Below are positions 38,640 to 42,031 of a DNA stretch of 64,000 nucleotides, piece after piece; position 1 is the first letter of the stretch; the number at the start of each line of letters is the position of its first letter. The notes under the pieces are model-generated. The model made no database searches, had not been told where the DNA came from, and saw only the letters and a list, made by a program, of their open reading frames with translations. A program made the translations under genes and the position numbers. The DNA comes from Salipiger bermudensis. GTDB taxonomy: Bacteria; Pseudomonadota; Alphaproteobacteria; Rhodobacterales; Rhodobacteraceae. Where the stretch lies: assembly GCF_020171625.1 (NCBI RefSeq), contig NZ_JAIUZY010000001.1:62001-126000 (forward strand), given 5' to 3'.

Positions 38640-39233
38640 TCAGCGGCGGGAGAAGAAGGCGGCGACGCGCGGGGCCAGCCAGTCCCAGAGCGCCGGGGCG
38701 CCGTGGCGGATCTTCGGCCCCATGCGGGCCTCGAACACATCGTGGCTGACGTTGTAATCGTCCCAGCTGCCGCCGCCGGAGGCGAGGTTGAGGTTGGGCG
38801 GCTGGAACCGGTCGAGCGACTTGGCAAAGCGCGCGTCCGGGGTCTCGTTGGCCTCGAACTCGTGCCAGAGCGCCAGAAGCTCTTCCGCCTGCGCCTGCGG
38901 CAGCATCCCGAAGAGCCGTGCCGCTGCGGCGCTTTCCTCGGCTTCCTTTGCGGCCTCGTCGACCTCGCCGAAGAACGGCGCGTCGCCGGCGTCGATCTCG
39001 ACCAGATCGTGGATCAGCAGCATCCGGATCACCCGCTCGACCGAGATACTCTCGGGGGCGTGTTCCCCCAGCACCATTGCGAAGAGCGCGAGGTGCCAGC
39101 TGTGCTCGGCCGAATTCTCGAAACGTCCATCATGGATGCGGGTGGCGCGGGTGACGCTCTTGAGCCGGTCGGCCTCCATCAGGAAAGCCATCTGGGCGTC
39201 AAGGCGGGCGGATTTGGTCGGGGTCTCAGTCAT
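38640..39233 (-). CDS. HD-domain hydrolase (YfbR/5'-nucleotidase-like)
   Basis: This 197-residue metal-dependent phosphohydrolase shows the family blocks DRLKSVTRATRIHDGRFENS, AEHSWHLALFAMVL (metal His), MLLIHDLVEIDAGDAPFF (the His-Asp pair), and LWHEFEANETPDARFAKSLD. This matches the HD_3/YfbR-YGK1 group, which dephosphorylates deoxynucleoside monophosphates. It is convergent with lpdA. Confidence 0.87.
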   Translation of the reverse strand: MTETPTKSARLDAQMAFLMEADRLKSVTRATRIHDGRFENSAEHSWHLALFAMVLGEHAPESISVERVIRMLLIHDLVEIDAGDAPFFGEVDEAAKEAEESAAAARLFGMLPQAQAEELLALWHEFEANETPDARFAKSLDRFQPPNLNLASGGGSWDDYNVSHDVFEARMGPKIRHGAPALWDWLAPRVAAFFSRR

Positions 39234-39489
39234 CGGGCCGGTCTCCGTCGGTCATGAGGAGGGGGGACCGGCGCGCCCGGTCGGGCGCCTGTGTCGCGGG
39301 GCGGTCTCGGAGCGCCGGTCGGTGAGGAGGCTGCGCGCGCAGGCTGGGCAGGGCGAGTGCAAGGGGACGGCTGCTGCGATCTCGGCGACTTGCCTTTCGA
39401 AGCGTTCGCCGCCGGGAACCATCACGCCCTCGAGGGGTCCCCGGGCCGGCGTTTCGGCCGGCGCGCGGGGCGGGGTCATCGGCGCCGTT

Positions 39490-40143
39490 TCAGCGGCTGC
39501 TTTCGGTCAGGCGGCGCTTCACGTAGCCGGTGACGCCGTCGATCATAGTCTCCATGTGCGGCTCTTCGAAGAAGTGCCCGGAGCCCTCGATCTCTTCGTG
39601 GGTGACGGTGATGCCTTTCTGTTCCTTCAGCTTGCCCACCAGCGACGCGGTGTCGGCGGGCGGCGCCACGCGGTCCGCTGTGCCGTTGATGACCAAGCCC
39701 GAGGCCGGGCAGGGCGCGAGGAAGGAGAAGTCGTACATGTTGGCCGGCGGCGAGACCGAGACGAAGCCGGTGATCTCGGGGCGGCGCATCAGGAGCTGCA
39801 TTCCGATCCATGCGCCGAACGAGAAGCCCGCGACCCAGCAATGCTTGGAGTTGTTGTTCATCGATTGCAGGTAATCGAGCGCCGAGGCGGCGTCGGACAG
39901 CTCGCCCACGCCCTGGTCATACTCGCCCTGGCTGCGGCCGACGCCGCGGAAATTGAAGCGCAGCACCGTGAAGCCCATGTTATAGAAGGCATAGTGCAGG
40001 TTGTAGACAACCTTGTTGTTCATGGTTCCGCCGAACTGCGGATGCGGATGCAGCACGATGGCGATCGGCGCATCGTTTTCCTTCTGCGGGTGGTAGCGGC
40101 CTTCGAGACGGCCTTCGGGTCCGGGAAAAATCACCTCGGGCAT
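39490..40143 (-). CDS. Alpha/beta hydrolase (COG2945-like)
   Basis: This 217-residue cytosolic hydrolase starts at PEVIFPGPEGRLEGRYHP. It has HPHPQFGGTMNNKVVYNLHY (oxyanion strand), FNFRGVGRSQGEYD, the nucleophile elbow VAGFSFGAWIGM (Ser), Asp in INGTADRVAPP, and His in IEGSGHFFEE: a full catalytic triad. It lies divergently from iscR and shares a promoter region with an Iron-Rhodo-box, so it may be co-regulated with iron. Substrate unknown. Confidence 0.88.
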   Translation of the reverse strand: MPEVIFPGPEGRLEGRYHPQKENDAPIAIVLHPHPQFGGTMNNKVVYNLHYAFYNMGFTVLRFNFRGVGRSQGEYDQGVGELSDAASALDYLQSMNNNSKHCWVAGFSFGAWIGMQLLMRRPEITGFVSVSPPANMYDFSFLAPCPASGLVINGTADRVAPPADTASLVGKLKEQKGITVTHEEIEGSGHFFEEPHMETMIDGVTGYVKRRLTESSR

Positions 40144-40201
40144 AGGTGCAATCTGCTCCTCAACACGCACCCGGCTTTCTTGACGAAACTGCTCAGGCAC
40201 C

Positions 40202-40259
40202 TTAGAACGGTTCTAACTCCGGAGCGTGCTCCGGGTTGTCTTCGTTTGCAGATATGCAA
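40202..40259. promoter_or_regulatory. Iron-Rhodo-box and two further palindromes
   Basis: TTAGAA-CGG-TTCTAA (40202-40216) matches the Iron-Rhodo-box, known as the IscR site of Rhodobacterales. CCGGAGC-GT-GCTCCGG (40219-40234) and TTGCA-GATA-TGCAA (40246-40259) follow at once. The box lies about 60 bp from the hydrolase start and about 126 bp from the iscR start. Confidence 0.75.
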
Positions 40260-40264
40260 TTGGT

Positions 40265-40293
40265 CTGGCAAGGTCAATCTTTGCCGGTATGAT
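40265..40293 (+). promoter_or_regulatory. Likely iscR promoter
   Basis: CTGGCA-N17-TATGAT gives a start point about 40300, some 40 nt before the iscR ATG. It lies directly downstream of the palindromes. Confidence 0.5.
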
Positions 40294-40341
40294 GCGGGGT
40301 TGGCGCCGAATGCGCGAGAAAGACGATAGGGGGGCGGTGGC

Positions 40342-40803
40342 GTGAAGCTGAGTACCAAGGGGCGCTACGCGATGGTCGCGCTGACCGACATCGCGATGCA
40401 GTCGAACGGCGTTCTGGTGACGCTGGGCGATATCTCGAAGCGGCAGGACGTGTCGTTGCCTTATCTCGAGCAGCTCTTCGTCAAGCTGCGGCGGGCGGGG
40501 CTGGTCGAGTCGGTGCGCGGGCCTGGCGGCGGCTACCGGCTGGCGCGCCCGCCTTCGGAAATCCGCGTGGTCGATATCCTCGGCGCCGTGGACGAGACGG
40601 TGGACGCCATGCACAAGGGCGCCGGCGCGTCCGGCGGGACTTCGGGCAGTCGGGCGCAATCGCTCAACAACCGGCTGTGGCAGAGCCTCTCGGCGCATGT
40701 CTACGTCTTCCTGCACCAGACGCGGCTGTCGGACGTGGTCGACAATTCGCTGGCGCCGTGCCCTGCGGTGCCCTCGCTGTTCGCGGTGGTCGACGAGGCC
40801 TGA
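40342..40803 (+). CDS. iscR: Rrf2 family regulator IscR (single-cysteine type)
   Basis: This 153-residue winged-helix regulator begins MKLSTKGRYAMVALTDIAMQ. Its wing has VRGPGGGYRLARPPSEIRVV. In Escherichia coli three Cys hold the Fe-S cluster in the segment after this; here that segment (HKGAGASGGTSGSRAQSLNN) has none, and only one Cys remains (LAPCPAV). The same feature is reported for Rhodobacter sphaeroides IscR, which represses iron-regulated genes through the Iron-Rhodo-box. It heads the suf operon and probably controls it and the divergent hydrolase. Confidence 0.92.
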   Translation: MKLSTKGRYAMVALTDIAMQSNGVLVTLGDISKRQDVSLPYLEQLFVKLRRAGLVESVRGPGGGYRLARPPSEIRVVDILGAVDETVDAMHKGAGASGGTSGSRAQSLNNRLWQSLSAHVYVFLHQTRLSDVVDNSLAPCPAVPSLFAVVDEA

Positions 40804-40826
40804 CCGCGACGCGTCCCAGGGGGTCA

Positions 40827-40888
40827 GGGGGCGCTGCCCCCGTCCGCGTAAGCGCGGACTCCCCCGAGGTATTTTTGAACCAGAGAAG
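40827..40888 (+). repeat. Dispersed element: two GC hairpins plus GAGGTATTTTTG tail (copy 1)
   Basis: Hairpin GGGGGC-GCT-GCCCCC (40827-40841) and hairpin GTCCGCG-TAAG-CGCGGAC (40842-40859) are followed by the tail CCCCCGAGGTATTTTTG with AACCAGAGAAG. The element lies between iscR and the desulfurase gene, inside the operon. Similar elements occur at 52504, 56176 and 56233 (inverted). Confidence 0.75.
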
Positions 40889-40926
40889 ATCAGGGGCCGG
40901 ACATGTGGCCCGGCAAGGAGCTTGAC

Positions 40927-41961
40927 GTGACGCGCGCCTATCTCGACTGGAACGCCACCGCCCCGCTGCGGGCAGAGGCTCGGGCGGCAATGATTGCCGC
41001 GATGGACGTGGTGGGCAACCCGTCCTCGGTCCATGCGGAGGGCCGTGCGGCCAAGGGTCTGATGGAGCGCGCCCGCGGGCAGGTCGCGGCGGCGTTCGGG
41101 GCCGAGGGGGCGGACGTGATCTTTGTCTCCGGCGCCACCGAGGCGGCGGCGCTGGCCTGCGCGGGCCGGGCGCTCGTCGGCGCCCCGGTGGAGCATGATG
41201 CGGTGGCGGCGTGGATCGACCCGTCGCTGCCCGTCGATGGGCGCGGGCAGGTGCAGGTGAGCGATCCTGCGCGCACCGCGCTGCAGGCGGCGAATTCCGA
41301 GACCGGGGTGGTGCAGGATCTGCCGCAGGGGCTTGCGGCGGTGGATGCCACGCAGGCCTTCGGCAAGATCCCTTTCGCCTTCAACTGGGCCGGATGCACC
41401 GCGGCGCTGGTCTCGGCCCACAAGCTGTGTGGGCCGAAGGGCATCGGCGCGTTGGTGCTGCGGCGCGGCACCGATCTGCAGGCCCAGCTCAGGGGCGGCG
41501 GGCAGGAGATGGGGCGGCGCGCGGGTACCGAGAACCTGATCGGGATCGCAGGCTTCGGGGCCGCGGCCGAGGCGGCGGCGCGGGATCTCGAGCAGGGCGT
41601 CTGGGCGCGGGTCGAGAAACTTAGAAACATTCTAGAGAATGTGATTGCAGACGGCGCGGAAGAGACTATTTTTGTCGGAAATGACGCGCCGCGTCTTCCC
41701 AATACCTCCTGCTTCGCGATGCCGGGCTGGAAGGGGGAGACTCAGGTGATGCAGATGGACCTTGCGGGCTATGCGGTCAGCGCCGGGTCTGCCTGCTCCA
41801 GCGGCAAGCTGCGTCCGAGCCATGTGCTGCAGGCCATGGGCCATGACGAGGAGGCGGCGCGCTGCGCCATCCGCGTCAGCCTCGGGCCGCAGTCGACCGA
41901 GGAAGAGGTACTGGGCTTCGCCGAGGCCTGGCTGAAACACTACCGGCGGCGGACCGGCTGA
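40927..41961 (+). CDS. IscS/NifS-type cysteine desulfurase
   Basis: This 344-residue PLP enzyme is a group I desulfurase, although somewhat short for IscS (about 400). It shows YLDWNATAPLRAEARAAM, NPSSVHAEGRAAKGLM, the Schiff-base Lys in SAHKLCGPKGIGALVL, RAGTEN, and the mobile catalytic loop SAGSACSSGKLRPS. It supplies persulfide sulfur for Fe-S assembly. GTG at 40927 has AAGGAG upstream. A near-perfect Iron-Rhodo-box-like palindrome lies inside the gene (41621-41635). The operon also encodes SufS, so two desulfurases are present. Confidence 0.87.
   Translation: MTRAYLDWNATAPLRAEARAAMIAAMDVVGNPSSVHAEGRAAKGLMERARGQVAAAFGAEGADVIFVSGATEAAALACAGRALVGAPVEHDAVAAWIDPSLPVDGRGQVQVSDPARTALQAANSETGVVQDLPQGLAAVDATQAFGKIPFAFNWAGCTAALVSAHKLCGPKGIGALVLRRGTDLQAQLRGGGQEMGRRAGTENLIGIAGFGAAAEAAARDLEQGVWARVEKLRNILENVIADGAEETIFVGNDAPRLPNTSCFAMPGWKGETQVMQMDLAGYAVSAGSACSSGKLRPSHVLQAMGHDEEAARCAIRVSLGPQSTEEEVLGFAEAWLKHYRRRTG
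41621..41635. promoter_or_regulatory. Intragenic Iron-Rhodo-box-like palindrome
   Basis: TTAGAA-ACA-TTCTAG inside the desulfurase gene matches the box upstream of iscR (TTAGAA-CGG-TTCTAA) in 11 of the 12 arm bases. It lies about 600 bp upstream of sufB. This may be chance coding sequence (VEKLRNILENV) or an internal control site. Confidence 0.4.
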
Positions 41962-42031
41962 GCGCCGCGAAACTGGCGCGAAGGGCTGCAGACGAGGGCC
42001 GGAGACCCTATATCTGGCGCAATGCCGGAGG

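Follow-up and report, generated by a model that had tools for sequence, protein, structure and literature searches.

A predicted stem-loop of changing sequence between the facing promoters of iscR and an alpha/beta hydrolase gene in Salipiger bermudensis

Introduction

Iron-sulphur clusters are assembled in these bacteria by way of the isc-suf operon, for which the closest described control region is that of R. sphaeroides. There, promoter P2 has been shown by experiment to drive iscR and promoter P5 to drive the divergent gene RSP_0444 (Nie, Remes and Klug 2019, PMC6956336). According to the same report, part of the RSP_0444 transcript, at its 5' end, would lie antisense to the RNAs made from P1 and P2. 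Stimulation of P2 was lost when the -35 element of P5 was disabled, and antisense RNA supplied in trans left P2 unchanged, the P5 effect being exerted in cis only (PMC6956336). The mutual influence of the facing isc-suf promoters is described there and left unexplained by its authors.

Two further kinds of arrangement resemble the present one. The excludon comprises neighboring genes with RNAs that overlap in antisense (PMC7154746). It differs from the locus described here in having a long antisense leader; the overlap predicted here is of ∼28 nt and lies at both 5' ends.

The second resemblance is to single messengers with structured ends. The ompA and papA transcripts carry 5'-terminal stem-loops that stabilize these bacterial mRNAs. 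The likeness lies in a G+C-rich stem that begins only a few nucleotides from where transcription starts, with the position of the stem here counted from predicted starts. The difference is that one dyad would serve two opposed transcripts in the present case.

Facing promoters with IscR and Irr boxes have been described before; the stem-loop and the pattern of P5 across relatives are what is added here, the likeness to R. sphaeroides being judged by the published positions (PMC6956336). A stem-loop lying in the overlap of the two RNAs, with pairing that is kept despite turnover of its letters, offers a concrete element for the P2/P5 puzzle.

Materials and Methods

The phylogenetic footprint comprised 188 iscR upstream regions, 182 of them distinct (20 from the same genus and 162 from other relatives). 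They were drawn from 20 genus loci, 28 family-search loci, 60 further hand-chosen family-search stretches and 80 named loci. The family draw (28 + 60) represents 88 of the 187 non-genus genomes matching in the family search, the named loci are the best 80 of 580, and loci newly found by an order-level search were left out of the footprint. The named relatives with an IscR belonged mostly to the Rhodobacteraceae. Folding counts refer to 163 regions, following exclusion of the 19 of 182 regions without the strict P2 pattern. As the relatives share ancestry, all counts are of sequences and not of events, and they are not independent.

The covariance model was built on nine seeds, six of them distinct. 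The model-fitted alignment held 44 sources (42 distinct), chosen from matches at E ≤ 0.01 together with three seeds (L007, L017, and L021), and L077, L075, and L095 were left out of it. Since matches above E = 0.01 include scattered and misplaced ones, only low-E rows were counted. A three-sequence alignment was used for inspection only, as was a genus alignment, some rows of which stop early at an earlier GGTCAA.

Results and Discussion

Genomic Organization of the iscR–Hydrolase Locus

The window (the whole 64-kb stretch of DNA that was analysed) contains two divergent genes on either side of the region of interest:

40342 to 40803, plus strand: iscR (Rrf2 family; GTG start; Pfam PF02082, 1.1e-34)
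39490 to 40143, minus strand: alpha/beta hydrolase, divergent neighbor to the left of iscR (Pfam PF00561, 2.2e-11)

The isc-suf operon opens with iscR and continues with an aminotransferase class V protein, a SufBD-core protein and an ABC ATPase. The start codon of the hydrolase is likely the ATG at 40143; the string ACCTCGGGCAT, which contains this codon on the other strand, was present in 20 of 20 genus members. RSP_0444 of R. sphaeroides is the positional counterpart of the hydrolase. The preliminary description of this interval had taken the hydrolase for a co-regulated partner of iscR. A control region common to both genes is borne out here. Co-regulation itself is unsupported, RSP_0444 being reported to be little changed by iron, peroxide or regulator mutants in R. 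sphaeroides (PMC6956336).

All the strings on which that description was built are present, namely, TTAGAAC-G-GTTCTAA (40202–40216, palindrome 1), CCGGAGC-GT-GCTCCGG (40219–40234, palindrome 2), TTGCA-GATA-TGCAA (40246–40259, palindrome 3), and CTGGCA (40265–40270) separated by 17 nt from TATGAT (40288–40293). Three of the readings placed upon them had to be corrected: an Irr-type box had been taken for an Iron-Rhodo-box, the -10 element of the hydrolase for an operator, and the iscR promoter had been put at a different position. The first two palindromes are beyond chance expectation. The 198-bp intergenic region holds two centers with arms of at least 7 and a spacer of at most 2, a class that averages 0.11 per 200 bp across the whole 64-kb window; in 1000 dinucleotide shuffles its mean was 0.025, and no shuffle had two. 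Palindrome 3 is weak: three centers with arms of at least 5 and a spacer of at most 4 were found in the intergenic region (P = 0.047 against shuffles), the average across the window being 1.6 per 200 bp.

Facing Promoters P2 and P5

The promoters identified by comparison of the relatives are as follows:

40180 to 40208, plus strand: iscR promoter P2, with -35 TTGACG (40180–40185), 17-nt spacer and -10 TAGAAC (40203–40208)
40249 to 40277, minus strand: hydrolase promoter P5, with -35 TTGACC (40277–40272), 17-nt spacer and -10 TATCTG (40254–40249)
40242, minus strand: predicted +1 of P5, the start of hydrolase transcription, placed by a P2-like -35-to-start geometry
40246 to 40259, no strand: palindrome 3, TTGCAGATATGCAA, consisting of the P5 -10 and genus-specific TTGC...GCAA flanks

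The P2 pattern TTGAC-N18-TAG was found in 163 of the 182 regions, and spacers of 13–17 and 19–23 gave 0 to 3. By analogy with the geometry in R. sphaeroides, +1 of P2 is placed at 40215. Among the 20 genus members, the CTGGCA-N17-TATGAT promoter proposed earlier occurs in 1, which is the genome of the window itself, and it occurs in 0 of 162 other relatives; the role assigned to it passes to P2. On the minus strand, the P5 pattern TTGAC-N17-TA[AT].T was present in 122 of 182 regions; spacers of 13–16 and 18–22 gave none, and a spacer of 12 gave one.

P2 would fire rightwards from about 40215 into iscR and the isc-suf genes, with the IscR box on its -35 and the Irr-type box over its -10 and start, and P5 would fire leftwards from about 40242 into the alpha/beta hydrolase gene. 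With the promoters directed towards one another, an overlap of about 28 nt is expected between the 5' ends of the two transcripts. Both promoters could be placed in 115 of 181 regions when a looser P2 pattern was used, and the distance from start to start had its mode at 27, with 54 of the 115 lying at 26–28. The locus resembles R. sphaeroides P2/P5 in its genes, in the facing layout and in predicted IscR and Irr boxes at the same P2 positions (PMC6956336).

Palindrome 3 had been considered the site of an added regulator. It holds the -10 of P5: CAGATA (40249–40254) reads TATCTG on the minus strand and stands 17 nt from TTGACC. The palindromic flanks are a matter of the genus, TTGC-N6-GCAA being found in 18 of 20 genus members and in 1 of 162 others, and the fuller TTGCA-N4-TGCAA in 9 of 20 and 0 of 162, respectively. 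Since TTGCA-GATA-TGCAA is the P5 -10, a further regulator is not needed outside the genus. Within the genus, TTGC-N6-GCAA over the P5 -10 could serve as the operator of a hydrolase-specific repressor, given that 18 of 20 members keep it although the -10 itself requires only part of it; this is unlikely, as the flanks are nearly absent outside the genus, close relatives are alike anyway and only 9 of 20 carry TTGCA-N4-TGCAA.

The string GGGCT (AGCCC on the hydrolase strand) was observed near the predicted P5 start, between the stem described below and the P5 -10, in 14 of 19 strict-P2 genus members, the window not being among them.

IscR and Irr-Type Boxes at P2

Two candidate boxes overlap the elements of P2:

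40179 to 40196, plus strand: IscR box as placed from the R. sphaeroides report (-36 to -19 of P2), of the form TTGA-N9-TCA and sharing sequence with the -35
40202 to 40216, no strand: palindrome 1, Irr-type box (TTAGAACGGTTCTAA) over the -10 and +1 of P2

For P2 of R. sphaeroides, an IscR box has been predicted at -36 to -19 and an Irr box at -13 to +1 (PMC6956336). When these positions are transferred, the IscR box falls at 40179–40196 and the Irr box at 40202–40215. With P2 starting at 40215, palindrome 1 occupies about -13 to +2 and not -36 to -19. It had previously been named an Iron-Rhodo-box. The published IscR position lies to the left of it, on the -35, and the position of palindrome 1 matches that of the published Irr box, so the sequence so named is an Irr-type box.

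The literature describes the Iron-Rhodo-box (the IscR site) as 19 bp long and RirA-box-like. The RirA box has the form TGA-N9-TCA. TTGA-N9-TC[AG], at 40180–40196 here, occurs in 94 of 182 regions, and the strict form TTGA-N9-TCA in 45 of 182. The P2 -35 also sits in a small dyad, TTTC-TTGAC-GAAA (window 40176–40188), which overlaps the published position of the IscR box and may be part of the IscR site.

The TTAGAA-N3-TTCTAA-type dyad is perfect at 40202–40216, and TTAGAANNNTTC[TC]AA was found in 134 of 182 iscR upstream regions. At one mismatch or fewer, the dyad occurs at four distinct places in the genome, against one for a reversed control pattern; the other three near copies lie upstream of an NfuA-like gene, upstream of an MbfA-like gene and inside an iscS-like gene. 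The MbfA-like gene, which has the box just upstream, combines rubrerythrin and VIT1 domains. Among relatives, an Irr-type box was found at 15 of 30 mbfA-like loci (30 of 39 matching genomes being examined) and at 25 of 30 nfuA-like loci (30 of 60 matching genomes). This is in line with the Irr box, or iron control element, of R. sphaeroides, which shares the TTAGAA-N3-TTCTAA form and to which the copies at mbfA-like, nfuA-like and iscS-like genes correspond here; in R. sphaeroides, mbfA and ccpA are Irr targets and mbfA is a demonstrated one (Peuser 2012, PMC3413700).

It is very unlikely that TTAGAAC-N-GTTCTAA is an IscR (Iron-Rhodo) site after all. In R. sphaeroides, IscR binds and represses P2, and Irr gave no in vitro binding to the P2 fragment in gel shifts (PMC6956336); the box of the present locus is a candidate Irr site. 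Against an IscR site stand the published box positions, the occurrence of the same motif before an mbfA-like gene, and the description of the Iron-Rhodo-box as RirA-box-like.

A perfect Irr box was also observed just before a TTGAC, upstream of the nfuA-like gene (locus L206, 1501–1515), and this suggests Irr control of nfuA, another Fe-S scaffold gene. A near-perfect Irr box (TTAGAAACATTCTAG) was observed inside the iscS-like gene (window 41621–41635), where R. sphaeroides has the internal promoter P3. The exact 16-mer quoted for the P3 Irr box of R. sphaeroides occurs in 171 of 394 family genomes, and controls had 0 among the matches listed. Read in frame, the iscS-internal box uses AGA, ATT, and CTA codons, which are expected to be rare in G+C-rich genes, and selection at the DNA level is therefore likely.

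A Predicted Stem with Changing Letters in the P2/P5 Overlap

The remaining palindrome fills the predicted overlap of the two transcripts, between the starts at 40215 and 40242:

40219 to 40234, no strand: palindrome 2, CCGGAGC-GT-GCTCCGG, a predicted stem-loop near +5 in the iscR RNA and near +9 in the hydrolase RNA

When regions were anchored on P2 only, uninterrupted Watson-Crick stems of 5 bp or more were present at +2 to +30 in 90 of 163 as compared to 19% of shuffles, and stems of 6 bp or more in 47 of 163 as compared to 4.8%. By group, 17 of 19 genus members and 73 of 144 others carried a stem of at least 5 bp, and the family draw alone gave 43 of 78; the remaining 73 of the 163 regions lacked an uninterrupted 5-bp stem. 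A stem excess was also observed at -50 to -17 (74 of 163, 45%, as compared to 20% of shuffles) and, more mildly, at +21 to +54 (48 of 163, 29%, as compared to 17.5%) and at +39 to +72 (37 of 163, 23%, as compared to 13%), which means that the signal extends beyond the overlap. The windows -80 to -47 and -115 to -82 showed no excess of 5-bp stems in the 163 regions. The mean folding Z was lowest at -5 (-1.08) and 0 (-0.92), followed by -50 (-0.75) and +20 (-0.74).

Irr-box promoters without a known facing promoter showed no stem excess (mbfA, 1 of 15; nfuA, 4 of 25), and they are only a partial control, since their promoter geometry differs: at mbfA the box directly adjoins the gene, and at nfuA it precedes a TTGAC. 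Among the regions without Irr half-sites, 6 of 14 kept a stem of at least 5 bp, including those of R. capsulatus (L141), Thioclava (L107), and Defluviimonas (L137).

The letters of the stem vary considerably, there being 71 distinct stem arms among 92 stem-bearing sequences. In the ungapped seed alignment (nine rows, six distinct), every cell is paired, and both partners have changed in two of the six pairs. The rows of the model-fitted alignment were selected on score and aligned to the structure, and at any given pair 14 to 20 of the 42 had a gap and were set aside. In this alignment, compensatory double changes were seen in five of six pairs, a result that 11 of 500 shuffles also reached. 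They amounted to 37 cells as compared to 11.3 in shuffles, and 96.2% of the counted cells were paired; the covariation score was 0.253, as compared to 0.063 for shuffled and at most 0.045 for slid alignments.

Palindrome 2 had been proposed as the site of a further regulator. It is real and non-random, and its structure is kept by many relatives. Its letters change while the pairing is often kept, and in this it is unlike a site for a sequence-specific regulator. The possibility that only palindrome 1 is conserved in relatives, which would have spoken against additional elements, applies to letters outside the genus and fails for the pairing of palindrome 2.

In the window, the iscR strand was predicted to fold at -11.8 kcal/mol, the pairing taking in its three 5'-most nucleotides as well, and the hydrolase strand at -11.9 kcal/mol with pairing from the sixth nucleotide. 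In relatives, counted from the predicted starts, the median position of the stem was +5 in the iscR RNA and +8 in the hydrolase RNA (Levene p = 0.54). The best helices held 58 G-U and 57 A-C cells, giving no strand preference. The equality marks neither RNA as the functional one and leaves room for a role at the level of DNA; the carrier of the stem-loop may be both RNAs, or the DNA, or the dyad may be a mutational by-product.

A search of 39000–42000 against Rfam 15 returned four rows at E ≤ 5; all scored far below gathering level, and the palindromes were not among the places matched. In the open-licence literature searched, the stem-loop was not found to be described, and the main text of PMC6956336 makes no mention of a hairpin, stem-loop, palindrome, inverted repeat or secondary structure.

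Possible Role of the Stem-Loop

The comparison of relatives directly supports the predicted promoter geometry, the excess of stems with letter turnover and compensation, and the equal placement of the stem to both predicted starts. On this basis, the interval is probably a shared control region with facing P2 and P5, in which the palindrome of the overlap would give both RNAs a 5' stem-loop with protection of the 5' end as its likeliest role. Judging from the usual size of a polymerase footprint, two polymerases could hardly occupy both starts together. Whichever promoter fires, palindrome 2 would put a stem-loop near the 5' end of the RNA. We infer that the stem-loop acts as RNA: it would make the 5' ends less accessible to RppH/RNase E, or to RNase J, in RNA decay, and it would keep the two complementary leaders from pairing with each other. 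Protection of both leaders is the first choice, being the likeliest role by analogy with the 5'-terminal stem-loops of E. coli. The stem begins about 4 nt from the iscR 5' end and 7–8 nt from the hydrolase 5' end, and this free tail of 7–8 nt is long for 5' protection and counts against it. The RppH of Bacillus is reported to require at least two unpaired 5' nucleotides (PMC3997798).

Alternatively, the stem-loop could lock the nascent RNA against backtracking of polymerase at the facing promoter ∼28 nt downstream, so that P2 and P5 fire through each other, and this reading, if true, would be relevant to the reported stimulation of P2 by P5 in cis. The equal placement of the stem to both starts and the absence of strand bias agree with it, as does the finding that P5 of R. 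sphaeroides affects P2 only in cis (PMC6956336). Stems were also commoner in regions with the canonical P5 pattern (67 of 112 as compared to 18 of 51), a difference that lineage, base composition or the slightly different lengths of the stretches scanned may confound. On balance, such a lock is quite unlikely. More generally, a dyad midway between head-on promoters and kept in many genera might be a symmetric traffic device, with the same hairpin on both nascent transcripts, and not a regulator site; we regard this wording of the case as decidedly improbable.

Dyads can also arise without selection for them. Correction of quasi-palindromes by template switching can create dyads, and palindrome 2 might be a functionless mutational by-product at a site of colliding transcription or replication. 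Such an origin would account for the symmetric placement, the lack of strand bias and the rapid turnover of letters. It would have to recur at one spot across many genera (more than half of the family draw), and the large share of regions without a 5-bp stem fits either view. We hold a by-product to be of distinctly low probability.

As for an operator of an additional regulator at palindrome 2, a perfect 7+7 palindrome beyond chance is all that favors it, and it is most improbable, given the unconserved letters with compensation and the fact that the 16-nt palindrome recurs exactly at just one more place in the genome (locus L002, 1501–1516), as an intrinsic terminator hairpin after a cytochrome oxidase subunit I gene.

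Palindrome 2 was itself considered as an intrinsic terminator and rejected, as it has no U-run; GTTGTCTTCG follows it. The terminator twin (L002, 1494–1526) is followed by GGCCTTTTTCTTT and is of the U-run type, unlike palindrome 2.
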